Below are positions 1-13,288 of a DNA stretch of 20,588 bases, one piece after another. The DNA is from a virus. The notes below the pieces were generated by a model. That model worked only from the letters and a program-made list of their open reading frames with translations. It was not told the DNA's origin and did not search any database. The translations under genes and the position numbers were made by a program. The stretch lies in IMG/VR virus record IMGVR_UViG_3300045941_000100, positions 1-20,588 of that record, one strand, 5' to 3'. Numbering within the stretch: the first letter of the stretch is position 1; each line of letters begins with the position of its first letter.

Positions 1-449
1 GCACGACCGTCGAGTACGGCTCGTGCACGAGTCGCAACCCCGACGTATTCGGCACGAAGGCGGGCGAGATTTTCGTCGCGGCGCCGGCGACGAGCCTGAC
101 GGTGAATCTCGTCGTCGTGCAGGAGTACTGCCTGCGGGCGTTTCACTCGAACACTTACGCAACGATGTTCAGCCCGAGCTCGCCGGGCAATTCCGGTTTC
201 TCGAACGTGGCGTCGACGGTCGTGCAGCCTCCGACGCCGGGTGTGCCTACGAACATCACGGTCACGTCGACGCGGATCGAGCCGTCGGAATGGACCTGTC
301 GGGATGCCTCGGGAGCCATCCTGACCTCGCACACGAGACAGGATACCGCTCAGACTGCGTGCACCAATCTGGCCATCGCAAGTCTTGGGGCTATTTACGA
401 AATCCGTCCGAGTGGCTACAGAATTTCGGCGGTCGCGCGACTAAAATAG
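1..449 (+). CDS. C-terminal part of a virion/tail-fibre-like protein (5' truncated by window edge)
   Basis: The frame beginning at base 3 is open from the window edge to a TAG at 447-449, giving at least 148 residues with no stop, so the gene starts upstream. The protein is rich in Thr, Ser, Val and Pro, with a Pro-rich linker (PPTPGVPTN) before a small terminal domain. That domain holds a W-x-C-R-D-A-S-G stretch, a S-H-T-R-Q-D stretch and a final Y-E-I-R-P-S-G-Y-R segment. I read it as the end of a fibre or host-contact protein, from composition and from the structural genes that follow; no specific family is recognised. Its last 25 or so codons are homologous to a relic at 1069-1146 beyond the HNH gene, and are less GC-rich than that relic. 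The current 3' end therefore probably arrived with the endonuclease. Confidence 0.65.
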   Translation, partial: TTVEYGSCTSRNPDVFGTKAGEIFVAAPATSLTVNLVVVQEYCLRAFHSNTYATMFSPSSPGNSGFSNVASTVVQPPTPGVPTNITVTSTRIEPSEWTCRDASGAILTSHTRQDTAQTACTNLAIASLGAIYEIRPSGYRISAVARLK

Positions 450-450
450 C

Positions 451-484
451 GAAGCCCGACCACGCGTCAACGTGGTCGGGCTTC
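451..484 (+). terminator. Perfect 14-bp intercistronic hairpin
   Basis: Bases 451-464 are the exact reverse complement of 471-484, with a 6-base loop. The hairpin starts two bases after the fibre stop codon and lies before the HNH ribosome binding site at 504-511. There is no T tract after it (taaccaagcc), so it is either a weak or factor-dependent terminator, or an mRNA-stabilising or processing hairpin. It lies within the segment that seems to have come with the endonuclease gene. Confidence 0.6.
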
Positions 485-516
485 TAACCAAGCCATACCT
501 GTTGAGGAGGTACGTC

Positions 517-1068
517 ATGGCTGAATCGCATCCTATCGAACAATGGCGACCGGTTCTCGGTTTCGAGGACAGCTACGAAGTAAGCGATGCAGGCCGTGTC
601 CGAAGCATTGCCAGACTACGGGCTGGTTACCAGATGATCAGCGGCCGGATGCTGAAGCTGCAAGAGATGCGGACCGGGTACTTGTACGTTGGTCTCTCTC
701 GTGCCCCGCGATACAAGCACGGCTACGTGCACATCATGGTTCTCGAGGCCTTCGTGGGTAAGCGTCCAGCGCCTGGTTACGATGCGCGTCATTTGGACGG
801 AAACTGCCAAAACAATCGGCTACCAAATTTGGCGTGGGGGACGAAGCTCGATAACGCCGCGGACATGCAACGGCACGGAACGACCCCTCGCATGACCGGC
901 GAGAAGCACGGCATGCATCGCCTGTTAACGGAAGACATTGCCCTCATCTTCGAGCTGCGGCGGCAAGGAATGACGCTCGAACAGATCGGATCTGAAGTGG
1001 GCGTTTCGTATGCTCACGTCAGCAACATACTGCGAGGCAAACGATGGAAGCACGTCGCGCCAGGCTAG
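517..1068 (+). CDS. HNH homing endonuclease, NUMOD4 plus HNH plus helix-turn-helix
   Basis: 183 residues from ATG 517, chosen because GAGGAGGT at 504-511 sits 5 bases ahead; an upstream in-frame start at 472 lies inside the hairpin. Residues 5-50 match a NUMOD4 motif (IEQWRPVLGFEDSYEVSDAG, then RVRS). Residues 72-112 form an HNH nuclease core with H72, H92 in ARHLDGN, N100 and the NLAWGT motif. Residues 137-178 resemble a resolvase-type helix-turn-helix (LTEDIALIFELRRQGMTLEQ, then the VSYAHVSNILRGKRW recognition region). Free-standing phage enzymes of this type cut DNA at a specific site and spread by repair. It is inserted between two structural genes and flanked by duplicated versions of the upstream gene's 3' end. 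The key residues are present, so it is probably active. The identification is firm; the target site is inferred. Confidence 0.93.
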   Translation: MAESHPIEQWRPVLGFEDSYEVSDAGRVRSIARLRAGYQMISGRMLKLQEMRTGYLYVGLSRAPRYKHGYVHIMVLEAFVGKRPAPGYDARHLDGNCQNNRLPNLAWGTKLDNAADMQRHGTTPRMTGEKHGMHRLLTEDIALIFELRRQGMTLEQIGSEVGVSYAHVSNILRGKRWKHVAPG

Positions 1069-1146
1069 ATTCTGAATCTCGCGCTCGCGAGCCTCGGCAC
1101 GCCGTTCGAGATGCGGGCGAGCGGCATTCGCATCGTCGCGCGCTGA
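1069..1146 (+). pseudogene. Displaced 3' end of the upstream fibre gene
   Basis: These 25 codons plus TGA follow the HNH stop directly and in the same frame. Translated, they read I-L-N-L-A-L-A-S-L-G-T-P-F-E-M-R-A-S-G-I-R-I-V-A-R. The end of the upstream fibre gene reads N-L-A-I-A-S-L-G-A-I-Y-E-I-R-P-S-G-Y-R-I-S-A-V-A-R. About two thirds of aligned positions are identical and most others conservative, with a two-residue gap. The relic uses GC-rich codons like the surrounding phage genes. Its TGA is one base from the GTG of the next gene, which is the spacing typical of this operon. I infer it is the original exon end, orphaned by insertion of the endonuclease cassette. It has no start codon of its own and is probably untranslated. 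Confidence 0.75.
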
Positions 1147-1147
1147 T

Positions 1148-2173
1148 GTGCTGCGGCTGACGGAGGAGACGGTTCGGTTCAACCGAGGCGCGCGCGCGAA
1201 TGCTCCCAGCGGGGCATCCGATCTCGCCCAACTAGCAGCGAGCCTGTCGTCCGGTCAGTGGTCGTCGTTCACGATGGGCGGTCTCACGGCCGCGATCTTC
1301 GTGGCGACCGGCGCCAGCGATCTGACGATCGGCGAGTTCGCCAGTCGGATGATCTGGGATCCGACGAACAAGAAGATTCAGTACTCCGGCACGTCGCACA
1401 CGGGCGGATCGCCGCTCGCGGGCTCCGGAGGCCTCGCGACGTGGGACGACGCGACGAACCAGTGGACGCGCGAAACGTACACGTGGAACTCGGACGCCGA
1501 GGGTCATGGCTACCAGCACATGACTCGCGACCTGCTCGGGAATCTCTACCGGCGCCACACGAACTCGAGGACGATCAAGCGCCGCGAGTACGGGGATACC
1601 GGCGAGGCGTCCTGGGAGACGGGGCACGTCGCCGACATCACGGGCAACTACGCCAACCAGTTCGCGGGAGGCCTGGAGTGGTTCCCTGAGCTGAACGGCG
1701 GCAGCGGCGGTCTCGTGTTCGTCGACTCGCTGGGCGCGAAGTACACGAACGCCGCGCTCTCGTCGTGGACCGACGCCGATGCCGCTGGCGGCGACCACGA
1801 CCAGAACATCGCCTACTTCGGCGGCAACGTGTACTTCGGCGGCAGCAGCGACGGCGATCTGAATCTGTATCGCATGGGGCCGACCGGCACGATCACCGCA
1901 ATGGCGGATCTGCCGTTCCCCGCGAACACGAACGTCGGGGACGGGATGATGATCGCCGCCCCGAACAACAACGGGCTGTTCCTGCTCGAGGCGGCGAGCA
2001 ACGGTGACTTCCGGTTCTTCAATGGGACGTCGTGGTCGGATCTGGGCTCGCACCAGTTTCAGAACGACGAGTACTTCCTCCCCGTTCCGATCTCGACCTA
2101 CGGCGTGATTCTCGGCGTGACGATCGACTCGTCGGGCGTCGCGACGCCGGCGGCGAAAGTCTACAAGCAGTAG
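1148..2173 (+). CDS. Phage structural protein, beta-rich, propeller-like
   Basis: 341 residues from GTG 1148; the ATG at 1146 stops after four codons. The sequence is rich in Gly, Asn, Asp, Thr and aromatics, with repeated blades of the type 'G-N-V-Y-F-G-G', 'G-L-V-F-V-D-S-L-G', 'G-L-F-L-L-E-A' and 'G-N-L-Y-R-R'. This resembles Kelch or beta-propeller-like phage appendage proteins. No signal peptide or membrane segment is visible. It sits among fibre-type genes and abuts the next gene with no gap (TAG then ATG), so it is probably a virion surface component. Before the HNH insertion its start was one base from the upstream stop; it may then have depended on translational coupling, since no good ribosome binding site is visible. 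No exact family is recognised. Confidence 0.7.
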   Translation: MLRLTEETVRFNRGARANAPSGASDLAQLAASLSSGQWSSFTMGGLTAAIFVATGASDLTIGEFASRMIWDPTNKKIQYSGTSHTGGSPLAGSGGLATWDDATNQWTRETYTWNSDAEGHGYQHMTRDLLGNLYRRHTNSRTIKRREYGDTGEASWETGHVADITGNYANQFAGGLEWFPELNGGSGGLVFVDSLGAKYTNAALSSWTDADAAGGDHDQNIAYFGGNVYFGGSSDGDLNLYRMGPTGTITAMADLPFPANTNVGDGMMIAAPNNNGLFLLEAASNGDFRFFNGTSWSDLGSHQFQNDEYFLPVPISTYGVILGVTIDSSGVATPAAKVYKQ

Positions 2174-2884
2174 ATGGCTACCACTGTCCGATCGTCGTCT
2201 ATCAACGCTGCCGCGAGTGGCACTGCCGTCTCGGTCTCGGCGCCGTCTGGCACGACAGCAGGCGATTTGGGCATCTGCATCGTCTGTTGCAACGGCAACA
2301 CGACGATCGTCGACAACAACGGTGGCACGTCGTTCACGGAGGACCTGAACGACGAGCAGGAGGTCACGGCCGGGATCACGCTGTCGGTTTTCACGCGCCG
2401 GATCCTGGGCGGCGACCCGAGCACGTACAACTTCACGATCGGTGCAAGCGGAAGGTGGACCGCGGTCGCGATCGCGGTTCAGAACCCAGACGGGACCACG
2501 ATTTACGACGTCACTCCGGCGGTAGGCGACAAGACGGCAGCCGCGGCGTTCGGAATCGCTCCGTCCATCACGACGTCGACCGACCAGTCGCTCCACTTCG
2601 CCCTCGTCGGCGTCGACGGCGACACGAACGTCGTGACGGGGACGCCGGCCGGGTACACGGTGCTGCAGAACGGCGGCAATCAGACGATCGCTGTGGCGTA
2701 CAAGGTCATCACGCCCGCTGGCTCTACCGGCGCGCAGCAGTTTGACTTCACGACCGCCAACGGAGTGATCCCGGTGTCCTTTGCGATCGAGAACAACCCC
2801 GCGGCCGGCGGCACGCCGGCTGTGATCAAGTTTGCTCGCAATCGCATGCGGCCCAGAGTCTTCGCTCCCGGCATTGTGCGATAG
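2174..2884 (+). CDS. Phage surface protein, beta-sandwich 'PSGTTAGDL' type
   Basis: 236 residues, ATG immediately after the previous TAG. The N-terminal half has the pattern P-S-G-T-T-A-G-D-L-G-I followed by a hydrophobic strand, then a 'G-G-T-S-F-T-E' strand. The protein at 3428-4174 shows the same layout (A-G-D-I-L-L-A, then P-P-A-G-W-T-E-L). Such modules occur in phage appendage and adhesin-like proteins, so the two look like distant paralogues. The last 25 or so residues are basic and different in character (ARNRMRPRVFAPGIVR), possibly an attachment peptide to the virion. There is no enzyme motif. Function beyond 'virion-associated' is inferred from context. Confidence 0.65.
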   Translation: MATTVRSSSINAAASGTAVSVSAPSGTTAGDLGICIVCCNGNTTIVDNNGGTSFTEDLNDEQEVTAGITLSVFTRRILGGDPSTYNFTIGASGRWTAVAIAVQNPDGTTIYDVTPAVGDKTAAAAFGIAPSITTSTDQSLHFALVGVDGDTNVVTGTPAGYTVLQNGGNQTIAVAYKVITPAGSTGAQQFDFTTANGVIPVSFAIENNPAAGGTPAVIKFARNRMRPRVFAPGIVR

Positions 2885-2892
2885 GAGTTGGA

Positions 2893-3426
2893 ATGTCTCG
2901 ACAAGCGTGGAACGAAACACTGGCGTGGATGACCGCCGACGCTACGGCGGTCCACACGACCACGACCGAGACGATCATCGTCCCGAATGTGACGATTCCG
3001 GCGAACTACATGGCCGACGGGCGCCTCCTGCGCGCTCAGGTCTTCGGCAAGCTGTCGACGACCGGTACACCGACGATGACCTTCGCGGTTCGTTGGGGAG
3101 GCGTCGGAGGGACGCTGCTCGCTACGACTGAGGCGATCACCAACGGTTCGGGCGTGACGAACGTCAACTGGTCGCTCGACGTCTACATCCAAACCCGATC
3201 GAACGGCGCGACAGGCTCGCTGCTCGTTTGGGGCGTTGCTCGAGTTCACACTGCGGCAGGCACGGTGGTCACGAACGTATTCGGCGTGTCGGGCCATGAT
3301 GCGCCCGCGGCGGTCACAGTCGACCTCACTGCCGACACGGCGCTGGCTATCACTGGAGATTGGAGCGCCAACAGCGCCAGCAATACGCTGACAGCGATGG
3401 GCTATTGCCTCGAGGCTCTGAACTAG
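2893..3426 (+). CDS. Phage jelly-roll-like structural protein
   Basis: 177 residues from ATG 2893, with AGGAG at 2883-2887. After a short N-terminal helix (MSRQAWNETLAWM) the protein is almost entirely predicted beta, with repeated Thr/Val strands. The central signature A-D-G-R-L-L-R-A-Q-V-F-G-K-L-S-T-T-G-T-P is typical of small phage proteins with a jelly-roll-like fold, often adjacent to fibre genes. The C-terminus contains an ALAITGDWSANSASNTLT strand pair and ends EALN. I assign it to the virion appendages on fold type and neighbours only. Confidence 0.65.
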   Translation: MSRQAWNETLAWMTADATAVHTTTTETIIVPNVTIPANYMADGRLLRAQVFGKLSTTGTPTMTFAVRWGGVGGTLLATTEAITNGSGVTNVNWSLDVYIQTRSNGATGSLLVWGVARVHTAAGTVVTNVFGVSGHDAPAAVTVDLTADTALAITGDWSANSASNTLTAMGYCLEALN

Positions 3427-3427
3427 T

Positions 3428-4174
3428 GTGCCTGACGTTTCATTCGTCGCGGCGGGGGCGCTCGGCACCGAGGTAGCGGATCAAACGCTGACGGTCGCCG
3501 CTCCGACGTGCGAGGCGGGCGACATCCTGCTCGCTCAGATCATCAACAAAGCGCTGTCGGTGGCGATCACGCCGCCGGCCGGGTGGACCGAGCTCTACCA
3601 GGCGGATGCGGACTGCACGACTGCGGCCGACGACCATCGGGCGGCGTTGTACTGGAAGCGAGCAGCGCTCGCGGATTCGGGGGCGAACTTCGATTTCACG
3701 AAGGCGAGCGGCACGGTGCTGTTCGCTGGCGTCATCTCAGCGTGGAGATGGGCGGACGCCTTCAACCCGATCGACAAGAGCGGCGTAGCGTCGCAGGTCA
3801 ACGCGGCCGCGGCCGACAACGTCACGTTCCCGGCCTACGACCCGTGGAGCGATCGGGCGCACGTGATTTTCTTCTCGTACTACGGGAACGACCTCACGAC
3901 GTTCGGCGCGGCGATGAGCGTGGACACGAATCCCGACTGCACGTTGCGGTACGACTTGGAGTCGAGCGCCGGGAACGATTGCTCGCTCTCGTGCATCTCG
4001 GGAATCTGCGATGGCAGCAGCATCGCGTCGCGCACGTGGGCCAGCGCGTCGACGGCTGATGCTGGGAGCACCGCGCTCGTTGTTGGGCTTGTCCCTCGAG
4101 CGCCGCTCCCGCAGAACTACCAGTTCGTACGCGCTAACGGCGCGATGACCATTTCGGGAAGCAAGCTCCGATGA
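3428..4174 (+). CDS. Phage surface protein, beta-sandwich 'AGDILLA' type
   Basis: 248 residues from GTG 3428, one base after the previous TAG. Residues 30-65 carry A-G-D-I-L-L-A followed by I-T-P-P-A-G-W-T-E-L, a pattern seen repeatedly in phage and secreted beta-sandwich proteins. A second strand set follows (VLFAGVISAWRW), then an Asp/Ser-rich stretch with a cluster of Cys (CTLR, CSLSCISGICD). Its architecture parallels the 2174-2884 product, suggesting an old duplication with extensive divergence. The gene ends TGA 4172-4174, overlapping the ATG of the next gene, so the two are translationally coupled. Probable virion appendage; exact role unknown. Confidence 0.65.
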   Translation: MPDVSFVAAGALGTEVADQTLTVAAPTCEAGDILLAQIINKALSVAITPPAGWTELYQADADCTTAADDHRAALYWKRAALADSGANFDFTKASGTVLFAGVISAWRWADAFNPIDKSGVASQVNAAAADNVTFPAYDPWSDRAHVIFFSYYGNDLTTFGAAMSVDTNPDCTLRYDLESSAGNDCSLSCISGICDGSSIASRTWASASTADAGSTALVVGLVPRAPLPQNYQFVRANGAMTISGSKLR

Positions 4175-5043
4175 GCTTCCCGCAACTGCGCAGCACGGTC
4201 AGAGGCCGCGACTACGGTGCCCCGGCTGCCGCCGATCCGAACGATCTGGCCGCCACCGGTTCGCTGTCGATCAGCGGAGCTGCCGATCTCGATGCGACCG
4301 GCAGCCTAACGGCTGCGGGTGCCGTGTCGATCAGCGGAGCTGCTGATCTTGACGCTCTCGGATCGCTGCTCGCAGCGGGCGCGCTCAGCATCTCCGGCGC
4401 CGCCGACCTGACGGACGCAGCGGACCCGAACGACCTCGCCGCGGTCGGTTCTCTCACGATCAGCGGCGTTGCGGATCTCGACGCCGCTGGCACGCTTACG
4501 GCCGCTGGCGCCGTGTCGATTTCCGGCGCTGCCGATCTCGATGCTCGAGGGAGTCTCGTTGCCGCCGGGGCTCTCAGCATCAGCGGCGCAGCGGACCTCG
4601 ATGCGCGCGGCGCGCTGGTGGCTGCTGGCTCGGTGGTTATTTCTGGCACCGCCGAGCTCACCGAGGCCGGCAATCCGAACGTCACGGCAGCGGGAGCGCT
4701 GTCGATCTCGGGCGCTGCGGTGCTCAATGCGATCGGGTCGCTCGCTGCGGCCGGATCGTTGTCCATCGTTGGCGCCGCGGACCTCAGACAGTCGTCGGAG
4801 CTCGCGGCGACGGGCGCGCTGGTCATCGCCGGCAATGCGGTTATCAGTGCGCGCGGAGCGCTTTCGGCCGCCGGGCAGATCGCGATTCTCGGTGCCGCGG
4901 TGCTGATGGATGCCAACGCGGGTACGCCGCAGGTCAAGCCGGGACGCGCATTCACCGTGCGTGGCGAAGCCAAGACGCAGCGCGCCACGGTCCCGAATCG
5001 AACGCTGACGGCTCGTCCAGGCGACCGAGAACACGACCTCTAG
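4171..5043 (+). CDS. Tandem-repeat protein, eleven 20-residue units
   Basis: 290 residues, starting at an ATGA overlap. Residues 21-250 or so are built from about eleven units of consensus D-A-x-G-S-L-x-A-A-G-A-L-S-I-S-G-A-A-D-L. A short head (MSFPQLRSTVRGRDYGAP) and a basic tail of about 40 residues (PGRAFTVRG, TVPNRTLTARPG) flank the array. The regular alternation of small and hydrophobic residues, with Gly at turns, is what a beta-solenoid or fibre shaft would need. Two units are preceded by an A-A-D-P-N-D-L variant, which hints at a higher-order duplication of about three units. Among fibre-type genes, it is plausibly a shaft or spacer. No named family is recognised, and the number of repeats may vary between relatives. 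Confidence 0.7.
   Translation: MSFPQLRSTVRGRDYGAPAAADPNDLAATGSLSISGAADLDATGSLTAAGAVSISGAADLDALGSLLAAGALSISGAADLTDAADPNDLAAVGSLTISGVADLDAAGTLTAAGAVSISGAADLDARGSLVAAGALSISGAADLDARGALVAAGSVVISGTAELTEAGNPNVTAAGALSISGAAVLNAIGSLAAAGSLSIVGAADLRQSSELAATGALVIAGNAVISARGALSAAGQIAILGAAVLMDANAGTPQVKPGRAFTVRGEAKTQRATVPNRTLTARPGDREHDL
4231..4914 (+). repeat. 60-bp coding tandem repeat array
   Basis: About eleven degenerate 60-bp units encode the 20-residue repeats of the enclosing gene. The best-conserved core is around the codons for S-I-S-G-A-A-D-L (for example 4271-4290, 4331-4350, 4391-4410). Synonymous sites differ between copies, so the array is not freshly duplicated, but the later units (from about 4680) are clearly more degenerate than the first eight. 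Confidence 0.8.
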
Positions 5044-6211: not shown

Positions 6212-6762
6212 TCCAGCTCAACATCCGCTCGGACATTCGCCAGGCGGAGCGCTTTCTCACCAACCTGCGCAAGAACGCAGTGAAGAAAGCAGCGGCGAGG
6301 GCGATCAACGACACGCTGATCACGCTCCGGGCCGAGGGCTCGAGGGAGATCAAGGCCGACCACCCGGCGCTCAAGATCTCCGAGATCAAGAAGAACATGG
6401 TCATGAAGAAAGCGCACCAGTACAACCTGGTGGGGCGCTTGAGCACGAGCGGCCGCCCGCTGTCCATGCTGCTGTTCCGGCCCACTAGGGGCAGCAAGCG
6501 AGTCGGAGTGAAAGCGCGCATCGGTCATGCGAGGGGTCAGCTCGACTACCAAGGACGCAAGGCGTTCAGGATCAGGGCGTTTGCAGACGAGGTGTTCGTA
6601 CGCAGATTCGGCCGCGGGCGCCAGGTGCGCCGGCTCAGAGGGCCGTCTATGCCTGGCGTGTTCCGTGCTCAGGGCGTGAAGTTCAAGCGGATTGCTCAAA
6701 ATAGGTGGCAGGTCCGCTTCAACCACCAACTCAAGTATGAGATCGAAATCGCAAAGCGTTAG
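6208..6762 (+). CDS. Z: Minor tail protein Z-like
   Basis: 184 residues from GTG 6208 (GTGA overlap). It has the signature of the lambda gpZ family: an N-terminal helical segment with A-A-A-R-A-I-N-D-T, then S-R-E-I-K-A-D-H-P-A-L-K-I-S-E-I-K-K, the G-R-P-L-S-M-L-L-F strand, a G-V-K-A-R-I segment and the F-R-I-R-A-F-A-D-E-V-F-V-R-R core. It is strongly basic, and its length is near the family norm. In lambda, gpZ works at the head-proximal end of the tail and lies between FII and U. Here it is upstream of the terminase, and the usual place (16109-16381) has no Z gene. Its last 25 or so codons are less GC-rich than the rest and overlap the start of the second HNH gene. Confidence 0.8.
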   Translation: MIQLNIRSDIRQAERFLTNLRKNAVKKAAARAINDTLITLRAEGSREIKADHPALKISEIKKNMVMKKAHQYNLVGRLSTSGRPLSMLLFRPTRGSKRVGVKARIGHARGQLDYQGRKAFRIRAFADEVFVRRFGRGRQVRRLRGPSMPGVFRAQGVKFKRIAQNRWQVRFNHQLKYEIEIAKR

Positions 6763-7606
6763 CGCGTGCTCGTGCGGAAAGCCTCTCGTGCAAAAACCGG
6801 GGCGCGGGCGAGCGGCGGTTCATTGCTCGCGCGCGTGCCGCGATCGTGTCAGCCGGATCTCTGCGGCAGGCAAGGCCAGAGTCAGCCGACAACGCGCCTC
6901 GGAGAAGCTGCGCGGACGTTCTGTTCATCGCAAGCGAGCAGATCGTGACCGAAACAGGACGCGCGGCAGGGTATTCCAGAAGCACTACCGTACCCAAGTA
7001 GATAGGGGCGCGTACTCAGGCTCTCTTGAGGAATACGCCGAGCACATCGAGCGTGTGCGCATGTCGTGCGGTACGCAGGAGTCATGGAAGGCATGGCTGC
7101 CGCCGAAGCCGGAGCCCACAAGGGCGCCAGGGCCAACTCCTGCTGAGCGCTACAGGGCAAGGTACAGGAGCGATCCAGCGTACCGATTGCGTGAGCGCAT
7201 GCGCCGTCAGTTCAAGAAGTGGTTGAGCGGGGAGAGAATCGCAAAGCCATCGTTTCTCTCATCGCTGAACTACACGTGGGCCGAGTTGCGAGATCACATC
7301 GAGAAACAGTTCGTGCGGGGCATGGATTGGAGCAACGCGGGCCGTTGGCACATCGACCATATCGCGCCGAAGTCGTCTTTCGATCCATCAGACGCAGCGC
7401 AGGTGCGTGCGTGCTGGTCGCTCGAGAACCTGAGACCGCTATGGGCATTGGACAACATGCGCAAGGGAGCGCGGCTGAAGTGTACTTGTACCAGTACGCT
7501 TGGGTCCTTCCCGGGCCGGCCACCCACCGCGGCACCGCGTGCCCCGAGGATCGACGATATTTCGCGCCCGATTTTTTCTGGACATTTGGGCGATGGCGCT
7601 GCCTGA
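6737..7606 (+). CDS. HNH endonuclease with N-terminal zinc-finger-like segment
   Basis: 289 residues from ATG 6737, inside the end of the Z-like gene; a TTG at 6692 would be longer. C11, C13, C30 and C34 make a likely zinc-binding pair of Cys clusters. A long Arg-rich helical linker follows (residues 38-165). The nuclease core lies at residues 185-245: W204-H205-I206-D207-H208-I, then W-S-L-E-N231-L-R-P-L and D239-N240-M-R-K-G. This is the usual layout of phage HNH enzymes with an H-I-D-H motif. The family normally ends shortly after 'KGAR', so the last 40 or so Pro/Arg-rich residues may be spurious translation of the region before the terminase gene. HNH proteins next to terminase can take part in packaging in HK97-like phages; a selfish homing role is the alternative. 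Confidence 0.85.
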   Translation: MRSKSQSVSACSCGKPLVQKPGRGRAAVHCSRACRDRVSRISAAGKARVSRQRASEKLRGRSVHRKRADRDRNRTRGRVFQKHYRTQVDRGAYSGSLEEYAEHIERVRMSCGTQESWKAWLPPKPEPTRAPGPTPAERYRARYRSDPAYRLRERMRRQFKKWLSGERIAKPSFLSSLNYTWAELRDHIEKQFVRGMDWSNAGRWHIDHIAPKSSFDPSDAAQVRACWSLENLRPLWALDNMRKGARLKCTCTSTLGSFPGRPPTAAPRAPRIDDISRPIFSGHLGDGAA

Positions 7607-10233: not shown

Positions 10234-10760
10234 ACATTCCGACCTCGCTCGTCGCCGGCGACGCCTGGCAGTGGGACGCCGAATACGGCGATTACCCTGC
10301 CGACACATGGACCGCGACTGCGTACTTCCAGAACGCGAGCAACCAGTTCACCGTCGCGTCGACGGCGAACGGCACAGCGCATCGCTTCGCGGCTGCGGCG
10401 ACAGCGACGGACGACTTCAAGGCTGGACACTATTACGTCCAGGTCAGGGTCACGGACGGCGCGTCGCCGGCGACAGTCGAGACCGGGTGGGTTCAGGTCA
10501 TCGCCGACCCGGCGTCCGAGGTCAAGGTCGATCACCGTTCGTGGGCGCGTCGGACTCTCGATGCGATCGAGGCGTTCCTCGAGGGCAACGCCACGACCGC
10601 GCAGCAGAGCATGAGCATCGCTGGTCGGTCGCTGTCTCGCTGGTCGCTTGCTGAGCTGATGAAGTTCAGAGACCAGCTGCGCGGCGAGGTCCGCACCGAG
10701 GAACAGGGATCAGCGGCAGGCCTTGGCCGCAACATCAAGGTGCGTTATGGCCGGCCGTAG
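10230..10760 (+). CDS. gpW-like head-tail connector fused to an N-terminal beta domain
   Basis: 176 residues from GTG 10230. Residues 1-95 form an Ig-like or jelly-roll-like beta domain (N-I-P-T-S-L-V-A-G-D-A-W-Q-W, then H-Y-Y-V-Q-V-R-V-T-D-G). Residues 108-176 have the layout of lambda gpW: helix, A-F-L-E-G-N, a beta hairpin S-M-S-I-A-G-R-S-L-S-R, a second helix W-S-L-A-E-L-M-K-F-R-D-Q-L, and a basic tail G-R-N-I-K-V-R-Y. Position between terminase and portal is where lambda W lies. gpW alone is 68 residues, so this is a two-domain version. The N-terminal half resembles proteins seen next to portal genes in other GC-rich siphoviruses. The gpW match is from pattern and synteny. Confidence 0.65.
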   Translation: MNIPTSLVAGDAWQWDAEYGDYPADTWTATAYFQNASNQFTVASTANGTAHRFAAAATATDDFKAGHYYVQVRVTDGASPATVETGWVQVIADPASEVKVDHRSWARRTLDAIEAFLEGNATTAQQSMSIAGRSLSRWSLAELMKFRDQLRGEVRTEEQGSAAGLGRNIKVRYGRP

Positions 10761-12864
10761 CGGAGCGACGATCACGCTCTCGATCAACGCTCCTGCCATT
10801 GGGTCGCTGCTGCGCAAGGTGTCTCGGCGTGTCTCCAGTGCGTGGCGTGCGTTACGCGGAAAACAGCTCTGGACCCGCATGTATGCCGCCGCGCGCGCGT
10901 CTCGTCTCACCGGCGATTGGCAGGCAGCAAATACCAGCGCAGATTCGGAGCTTTCCAGCAGCCTGACGCAACTTCGGTCACGTTCGCGCGCGCTTTGTCG
11001 CGACGTGAGCTACGCGAAGCGCGCGAAGCAGCTCGTCGTCAACAATGTGATCGGCACCGGCATCGGCATGCAGGGCCAGGTCTACACGACCCGCGATGAA
11101 CTGAACGCGCGGGTGAACGACGAGATCGAGTCGGTCTGGAAAGAGTGGTGCTACGCCGATCACTGCCATACGGGCGGGCGCCTCGACTTCGCGCTATTCG
11201 AGCGCGCGCTGATGGCCCAGGTGTTCGAGGCCGGCGAGGTCCTCGTCCGGAAGCACTACCGCAGGTTCGGCAAGTCGGAGATCCCGTTCGCGCTCGAGCT
11301 CATCGAGGCCGAACGGATCGCTGACGACATGTATACCGCGTCGTTCGAGCGGGGAGGTCGGAACGAGATCAGGATGGGCGTCGAGGTCGATCAATTCGGC
11401 CGCCCGATCGCCTACTACATCCGCCGGCGCCATCCGGGCGAGTTGCGGTTCACGTTCAACATGATGCCGGACGACATCGAGCGCGTGCCGGCCGATCAGA
11501 TCATTCACCTCGCGTTCGGTGATCGCTGGCCGCAGACGCGCGGCGAGCCGTGGATGTCGGCGGTCATTCGCACGGCGCGCGACATGGCCGGCTACATCGA
11601 GGCCGAGATCACGCGCGCGCGAACGCAGGCGTCGGTTCCCTGGACCATCGAGACGCCGGAGGACATCACGTCGTTCGGAGAGGAACAGGCCGATGGCTCG
11701 GTCGAGATGGAGGTCGAGCCTGGTATCGCGAAACGGCTGAACCCTGGCGAGACGATGAACGTGCCGGCGATCGGCTCGCCGAATCCGCAGGTCGAGCCGT
11801 TCATGCGGTATCTGCTGCGGGACTTCGCCTCTGGGCTCGGTGTCAGCTACGCCTCGCTATCGGCCGATTACTCGCAAGGCAACTACTCGAGCTCGCGGCT
11901 CGCGTTGCTCGACGACAGGGACGTATGGCGAGCGTTTCAGACGTGGTTCCTGTGCTCGTTCCGTCAGCCGATTCACCGCGAATGGATGCAGCAGGCGGTC
12001 CTCGCCGGCGCGTTCAAGACGTTCTCGATCGAGTCGTGGGCGCTCGACCGTCGCAAGTACGAGGCCGTGCGCTTCCGTCCGCGCGGCTGGGGCTGGGTGG
12101 ATCCGACCAAGGAAGTCGAAGCGTTCAAGGAAGCGGTGCGCTGCGGCTTCATGACGCTGCAGGACGTCGTGTCGCAGAGCGGCGCCGACATCGAGGAAAT
12201 CTTCGACCAGCGCGAGAAGGAGATCGGTCTCGCGGCCGAGGCCGGCCTAGTGCTCGACACGGACCCGGCGAACGAGATCAAGGCCGAGCCGGAACCGGAC
12301 CCTCCGGCCGAGGCGCCGGACGAGGACGAAGAGGACGACGAGATTGGAGAGAATAGGGCATGGGCAGCCGCGTTGAACTCGCTGGAAAGCGCTTTGGCAG
12401 ACTCGTCGTTGTCGAACGCACGAACCGCCGCAACTCTTCAGGAGACGTGTTCTGGCTTGCGACATGCGATTGCGGCCAGCAACGAGAATACCGCGGCAAG
12501 AATCTCCGAGGAGGCGAAGCGCTCTCGTGCGGATGTGGCCGAAACCAGGAAGGCTATAGAAAGCTCCGAGCGCGCGATCTCACGGGCGTCAGATTTGGTC
12601 GCTTGGTCGCAAAAAGCATCTCAGGATTTACGGTCGGAGGTGCGCGATGGCTTTGCGTCTGTGACTGCGGTGTCCGTAAAACAGTCCGCGGAAATAGCCT
12701 CACTACGGGACACACAACTTCGTGCGGCTGCTATCGACCAGTCAAACATCGCAACCTTGCCGGGCGAAGGTTCGGCAAACTCGTCGCCCGACAAAGAGTT
12801 GCGAGAAAAGGTGGCGATGCACTCTGGCAATGCGCCTGCGATTGTGGCCGGAACGTCGAAGTAA
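10747..12864 (+). CDS. Portal protein, lambda family, with 167-residue out-of-frame-overlap extension
   Basis: 705 residues from ATG 10747; a TTG at 10723 is less likely. Residues 1-538 are a full lambda-type portal: N-terminal basic segment, R-A-L-C-R-D-V-S-Y-A-K-R-A, a long wing, the L-E-L-I-E-A-E-R-I-A-D segment, G-V-S-Y-A-S-L-S-A-D-Y-S-Q-G-N-Y-S-S-S-R, and a final helix F-D-Q-R-E-K-E-I-G-L followed by an acidic Pro-rich tail. Lambda gpB has 533 residues, so the family-length protein ends at base 12360, exactly at the ATG of the HNH gene. The frame then continues 167 codons through that gene in the +1 frame. The extra stretch is Ala/Ser/Glu/Arg-rich and helix-like. It forms the dodecameric DNA gate of the capsid. 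Confidence 0.93.
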   Translation: MAGRSGATITLSINAPAIGSLLRKVSRRVSSAWRALRGKQLWTRMYAAARASRLTGDWQAANTSADSELSSSLTQLRSRSRALCRDVSYAKRAKQLVVNNVIGTGIGMQGQVYTTRDELNARVNDEIESVWKEWCYADHCHTGGRLDFALFERALMAQVFEAGEVLVRKHYRRFGKSEIPFALELIEAERIADDMYTASFERGGRNEIRMGVEVDQFGRPIAYYIRRRHPGELRFTFNMMPDDIERVPADQIIHLAFGDRWPQTRGEPWMSAVIRTARDMAGYIEAEITRARTQASVPWTIETPEDITSFGEEQADGSVEMEVEPGIAKRLNPGETMNVPAIGSPNPQVEPFMRYLLRDFASGLGVSYASLSADYSQGNYSSSRLALLDDRDVWRAFQTWFLCSFRQPIHREWMQQAVLAGAFKTFSIESWALDRRKYEAVRFRPRGWGWVDPTKEVEAFKEAVRCGFMTLQDVVSQSGADIEEIFDQREKEIGLAAEAGLVLDTDPANEIKAEPEPDPPAEAPDEDEEDDEIGENRAWAAALNSLESALADSSLSNARTAATLQETCSGLRHAIAASNENTAARISEEAKRSRADVAETRKAIESSERAISRASDLVAWSQKASQDLRSEVRDGFASVTAVSVKQSAEIASLRDTQLRAAAIDQSNIATLPGEGSANSSPDKELREKVAMHSGNAPAIVAGTSK

Positions 12865-13235
12865 TCGCCAGATCGCTGGTTCACGGCAAAACGACGAGTT
12901 GCGGGTGCGCGTGGCAATTCAGAGCTGGCGGTAGAAGCAAGACTCTTGAATACAGAGCTACGAAACAACAAGAGCGAGAAGCGAAAAAACGCGGCAATGG
13001 CGGGACGTTCTCGCATGATGAGATTGAGCGACTGTACGAACTGCAACAAGGCAAGTGCGCGGTTTGCAGAACAAGCCGCACGCTCGCGAAGATGCACCGA
13101 GATCACATCATCCCGTTGAGCGCTGGCGGAGGTAGTTCGATCGCGAACATCCAACTGTTATGCGCGTCGTGCAACTGCTCGAAGCACGCCAAGCATCCGA
13201 TCGTGTTCATGCAGTCGAGAGGGTTTCTGCTGTAA
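12360..13235 (+). CDS. HNH endonuclease with three zinc-ribbon/AP2-like DNA-binding repeats
   Basis: 291 residues. Residues 5-59, 71-124 and 130-183 are three copies of a unit with 'L-A-G-x-R-F-G-R-L-V', a C-x-C-G pair and a terminal S-C-G-C, the unit found in phage HNH proteins of the AP2-like type. Residues 219-285 carry the HNH nuclease: Y-E-L-Q-Q-G-K-C-A-V-C, H-R-D-H-I-I-P-L-S-A-G-G, N-I-Q-L-L-C-A-S-C-N-x-S-K. All metal and catalytic positions appear intact. The ATG at 12360 lies inside the portal frame at the point where a normal portal gene would stop, so translation is probably coupled. Codon use is less GC-rich than portal or capsid genes, in line with recent arrival. A terminator follows. 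Likely a free-standing homing endonuclease. Confidence 0.92.
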   Translation: MGSRVELAGKRFGRLVVVERTNRRNSSGDVFWLATCDCGQQREYRGKNLRGGEALSCGCGRNQEGYRKLRARDLTGVRFGRLVAKSISGFTVGGARWLCVCDCGVRKTVRGNSLTTGHTTSCGCYRPVKHRNLAGRRFGKLVARQRVARKGGDALWQCACDCGRNVEVIARSLVHGKTTSCGCAWQFRAGGRSKTLEYRATKQQEREAKKRGNGGTFSHDEIERLYELQQGKCAVCRTSRTLAKMHRDHIIPLSAGGGSSIANIQLLCASCNCSKHAKHPIVFMQSRGFLL

Positions 13236-13258: not shown

Positions 13259-13288
13259 AACGCCGGCCCAGTGCCGGCGTTTTCGTTT
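13259..13288 (+). terminator. Intrinsic terminator after the third HNH gene
   Basis: A perfect 9-bp GC-rich stem (13259-13267 with 13273-13281), 5-base loop and a T-rich run TTTTCGTTT form a good Rho-independent terminator. It lies between the HNH stop and the ribosome binding site GAGGAG (13290-13295) of the capsid gene, in the middle of what should be one late transcript. Either late RNA polymerase is antiterminated or capsid genes have their own promoter; I see no clear promoter here. Confidence 0.8.

Follow-up and report, generated by a model that had tools for sequence, protein, structure and literature searches.

The window analysed here is a viral contig of 20,588 bases, from an uncultured phage, with tail, terminase, portal and head genes aboard. 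Its left end comprises, in this order, an upstream gene, a hairpin, a gene for an HNH endonuclease, 78 bases and a gene that starts with GTG at position 1148 (Table 1). The upstream gene terminates at 447-449 with CTNLAIASLGAIYEIRPSGYRISAVARLK as its final codons, its protein ending in ...ACTNLAIASLGAIYEIRPSGYRISAVARLK, and the HNH gene has its stop at 1066-1068. Beyond this stop the HNH frame continues as ILNLALASLGTPFEMRASGIRIVAR, a run of 25 codons (1069-1143) that we shall call the relic, closed by a TGA at 1144-1146, one base ahead of the GTG. Stops and starts adjoin in the same manner at other gene junctions of the window (2173/2174 and 3426/3428). For the gene at 1148, scans of viral contigs recovered only a distant relative, L003, where it corresponds to the C-terminal third of a protein of 902 amino acids (2285-4993); because of the place of this match, the gene may have been split off from that for a larger tail protein.

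Table 1. Features at the left end of the window
Feature	Position	Strand	Basis
Upstream gene, apparently chimeric, 5' end cut off by the contig	3..449	+	ORF; GC3 change point
C-terminal domain, 63 residues, TVTSTRI...RISAVARLK	258..446	+	67% identity over 58 amino acids to L017; model
Present 3' end of the upstream gene (functional copy), putative replacement, GC3 about 0.5	360..449	+	Alignment with the relic
Hairpin, perfect, stem of 14-15 bp	451..484	+	Folding
HNH endonuclease gene, NUMOD4 + HNH_3 + HTH, 183 amino acids, I-HmuI-like	517..1068	+	Pfam/PHROG; catalytic positions; PDB 1u3e
Relic, putative native 3' end of the upstream gene left stranded, ILNLALASLGTPFEMRASGIRIVAR and stop	1069..1146	+	Homology, composition, L017 match
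Next gene, GTG start 1 nt past the relic stop	1148..2173	+	ORF; L003 is a distant relative

The C-terminus encoded by the upstream gene and the relic resemble each other over a short but well-defined core, with 14 of 20 residues identical and clear homology between 366-434 and 1075-1143. Their local alignment reaches a BLOSUM62 score of 64, a value attained by none of 20,000 shuffles (maximum 44), and the best other place for the same alignment in the six frames of the window, on either strand, scores 37. When the whole domain was compared with the window by tblastn, the relic was matched at E = 9e-4 and no further copy of the domain came up elsewhere. The domain of L017, a gene on another viral contig, used as an independent query, likewise matches the relic (E = 0.009, 57% over 23 residues), and because of this the relic is, as judged by its sequence, a real member of the domain family, with the caveat that it is only 25 codons long. 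At the level of DNA the two copies are far apart: they differ at 31 of 75 bases and use other codons for 12 of the 16 residues that they share, and the upstream copy is therefore not a recent duplicate of the relic.

L017 was picked up by scanning viral contigs with a degenerate motif of the gene end. It is HNH-free, it ends in the same domain in a single copy, and its record has no match to the HNH protein of the window. In DNA the relic is 73% identical to L017, close to the 71% of the front half of the domain, and the present 3' end is 62% identical, figures to be read with the reservation that the relic and L017 are both GC-rich, which raises identity by itself. The same ranking of the two ends is seen in the proportion of identical codons among the residues shared with L017 (12/23 in the front half, 9/12 in the relic, 5/13 in the present 3' end). 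Outside the domain the L017 protein is different, the domain being joined there to another front part: positions 11-571 encode an apparent N-terminal signal peptide, a proline-rich linker and then the C-terminal domain found in the upstream gene of the window, an arrangement which suggests that the L017 product is exported or surface-exposed and that the domain is modular. The model of the domain (mean pLDDT 84) predicts a beta-beta-alpha-beta-beta order, in which the part that is doubled at the locus comprises the helix end and the two final strands; on this model a domain devoid of such an end would be cut in half. Comparison of the predicted fold gave no confident match. As the upstream protein has no Pfam or PHROG match, its identity as a fibre protein, proposed in an earlier note on this DNA, is not established.

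Which of the two ends is native can be asked from composition. The third-position GC (GC3) of the upstream gene falls from 0.86 to 0.51 at a change point best placed at 336 (permutation p = 0.002), a loose position with a range of about 285-378, and its first 98 codons differ from its last 50 (Fisher p = 1.6e-4). Along the locus, GC3 is 0.86-0.87 in the front part, about 0.5 in the present 3' end, 0.66 in the HNH gene, 0.85-0.90 in the relic and 0.88 in the next gene. Windows of 25 codons with a GC3 as low as that of the present end are found in the other genes of the window in 107 of 4725 instances, about 2%. A codon-usage likelihood contrasting native with HNH usage over the upstream gene placed no clear break, where GC3 placed one. 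When the present front is joined to the relic, an uninterrupted reading frame results, which runs through ...DTAQTACLNLALASLGTPFEMRASGIRIVAR to a stop and has the expected end of the domain; that front and relic together would constitute the old gene agrees with the DNA comparison to L017, subject to the reservation about GC content. Much of what the earlier note had read from the letters is thus borne out: the two C-termini are homologous far above random expectation and strongly diverged in nucleotides, the relic has the GC-rich codon usage of the phage with its stop one base from the GTG, and a less GC-rich, diverged 3' end completes the upstream gene, with the joined flanks in frame and a native-looking end behind a complete HNH gene. 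The boundary that it had set at 373 did not hold, the shift beginning further upstream.

The gene that separates the two ends encodes an intact protein. It is preceded by a ribosome-binding site, GAGGAGGT, and its product displays NUMOD4 (1.9e-14), HNH_3 (E 9.7e-11) and, at the C-terminus, HTH_3 (3.8e-5) domains in Pfam. The catalytic positions H72, H92, N100, N104 and N113 are invariant across 8 sequences, and a match to I-HmuI (PDB 1u3e) spans residues 9-179 (E 3.8e-9). By these signs the HNH gene is complete and full length, with intact catalytic positions. I-HmuI, the HNH nuclease of a Bacillus phage, is encoded within a group I intron, whereas no intron was detected around the HNH gene of the window: a search of 1-2200 against Rfam returned no intron family up to E = 1. 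Weak Rfam matches at 450-524, below gathering scores, were set aside as reflections of the hairpin. The latter is part of a segment that folds strongly (440-520, -36.9 kcal/mol, z -5.6); it has no U-run on the plus strand and is terminator-like only on the minus strand, and may be a terminator that was carried in or a DNA structure.

Relatives of the locus were sought widely. Phage and plasmid searches, in DNA and in protein, for the upstream gene, its domain or the next gene turned up nothing useful; no orthologue came from scans of viral contigs for the upstream gene, the HNH gene or either of the end motifs, and motif scans of bacterial genomes gave chance matches only. As none of these phage, plasmid, viral-contig and bacterial-genome searches yielded an HNH-free orthologue of the locus, the ancestral state is a reconstruction and has not been seen. 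Neither was a donor of the present 3' end found among phages, plasmids and viral contigs. Judged by terminase, the closest viral relative is L007 (83%), a fragment of 6.2 kb that ends short of the locus. Homologues of the HNH gene were sampled at 20 annotated phage loci, and at none of them was the end of the upstream gene repeated after the HNH stop. A candidate second case, L028, flagged by a frame-free survey, was unsupported when tested with annotated frames.

Two other endonuclease genes are present in the window, and neither has such a relic. One is an HNH gene (phrog_374, 12360-13235), which shares 505 bases, read in a different frame, with the end of the portal ORF (10723-12864). The relatives L007 and L008 have the major head gene shortly after the portal gene and no HNH gene between the two; this second HNH gene is therefore an insertion for which an HNH-free counterpart exists, and behind it the portal gene has left no relic of its end. 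Between it and the major head gene, at 13262-13286, there is a terminator-like GC-rich stem followed by TTTT. The other, an ORF of endonuclease VII or HNH-like type (6692-7606), overlaps the end of a neck gene and the start of the ORF that precedes the large terminase gene.

The best explanation of this layout, to which we give a probability of about 0.68, is that a free-standing HNH gene of homing type entered the 3' end of the upstream gene, bringing along a diverged version of that end, and left the native one stranded. The ancestral gene would have continued from the present front directly into about 1072-1146 and stopped a single base short of the GTG (1148). What came in would have consisted of a donor 3' end, its stop, the hairpin and the HNH gene. 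On the left, exchange would have taken place at some point of about 285-378, inside the C-terminal domain common to both; on the right, the join would lie at the codons equivalent to C-T-N (360-368 and 1069-1077). Because the donor end would complete the small beta-beta-alpha-beta-beta domain, the gene product would stay whole, and the resident end, cut off from its upstream reading frame, would be left behind as an untranslated relic. Cutting by the HNH protein at these conserved codons may plausibly have driven the event, and their change may plausibly protect the copy now in place. The relic is probably untranslated, because it lacks both a usual start codon and a visible ribosome-binding site. 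The next gene, which formerly would have adjoined the stop of a translated gene, may have lost translational coupling. The earlier overall reading is thus supported in part: a putative replacement 3' end, a stranded native-looking end and an endonuclease free of any detected intron stand, and the name of fibre is not established.

An identical anatomy would be expected if the endonuclease had played no part, ordinary recombination within the shared domain having produced a mosaic, with the 3' end, the hairpin and the HNH gene coming from a relative and an unequal join on the right sparing the old end. Phages do recombine at gene ends, and NUMOD4-HNH genes are usually intergenic and devoid of a relic. 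Yet such a passive origin, which we consider unlikely, leaves unexplained why an intact nuclease of homing type sits exactly between both ends and stops at the first codon of the relic, and elsewhere this layout is tied to mobile endonucleases (PMC3630166). We give a smaller chance still to tandem paralogues, in which case a second gene carrying the same C-terminal domain would have lost its front when the HNH gene entered, and the relic would be its remaining end. The modular nature of the domain, with its other front part in L017, and the many synonymous differences between the ends, as in old paralogues, would suit such a history; it predicts neither the composition break inside the upstream gene nor the poorer match of its last codons to L017, and the domain has no other copy in the window. 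In number of donors, the simplest account is a duplication of the gene end in place as the HNH gene inserted, with the upstream copy diverging afterwards. This is very improbable: it is the translated copy that has the lower GC3, with the recoding of 12 of the 16 shared residues, and an untranslated relic should have decayed, yet it is still open and GC-rich. Least credible is an assembly chimera of two co-occurring phage variants, conceivable in that the record is an unfinished viral contig, yet at odds with junctions that are in frame, with a completed gene and an HNH gene that are both intact and with a right edge that falls on the HNH stop codon.

Entry of an HNH gene with a replacement 3' end, the reading that we favour, has its closest parallel in fungal mitochondria, where mobile endonuclease ORFs with replacement of the C-terminus are known in atp6 of Allomyces and in atp6, atp9, cox2 and nad3 of Glomus, the old end being no longer expressed in Glomus atp6 and cox2 (PMC3630166). 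The window shares with them an in-frame 3' end of other composition, of a foreign origin that we infer here, with the endonuclease ORF behind it, and a native end kept downstream of the ORF and diverged from the inserted one. It differs in that LAGLIDADG or GIY-YIG ORFs are involved there, in mitochondrial core genes, and an HNH gene in a phage gene here, and in that close relatives and RT-PCR are available for the fungi, whereas the present case is known from its sequence alone. By analogy it works like the fungal mitochondrial type, yet it is not a member, because of its HNH protein and of the phage contig on which it lies.

Phages have free-standing homing endonucleases of their own, the seg and mob genes of T4 (PMC2988022) and the HNH genes of Skunavirus (PMC12724721), with which the window shares a stand-alone gene outside any intron, packed between phage genes. 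A review and a recent survey describe co-conversion of flanks for such genes, and cutting at a distance from where they are inserted (PMC2988022, PMC12724721). Since the known ones generally cleave at a good distance from their own place of insertion (PMC2988022), a gene inserted where it cuts would depart from the usual phage pattern; the window also differs in its relic, the 20 sampled homologues having none of the neighbouring gene. Open-access text yielded no report of a native gene end stranded in a phage, which makes for limited evidence.

Free-standing homing genes are thought to be largely confined to intergenic spaces unless they reside in introns or inteins. It is about as likely as not that phage HNH genes can move as units which bring the gene that they cut a new 3' end, in the manner of the mobile ORFs of fungal mitochondria, the unit healing the broken gene, recoding the cut site and stranding the old end. 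If this were true, a free-standing nuclease could invade a coding region with neither intron nor intein. Since the relic is a direct trace, for which other phages can be screened, the frequency of such events is testable by computation. A cassette furnished with its own healed gene end could enter coding sequence, and chimeric gene ends would arise as a by-product.
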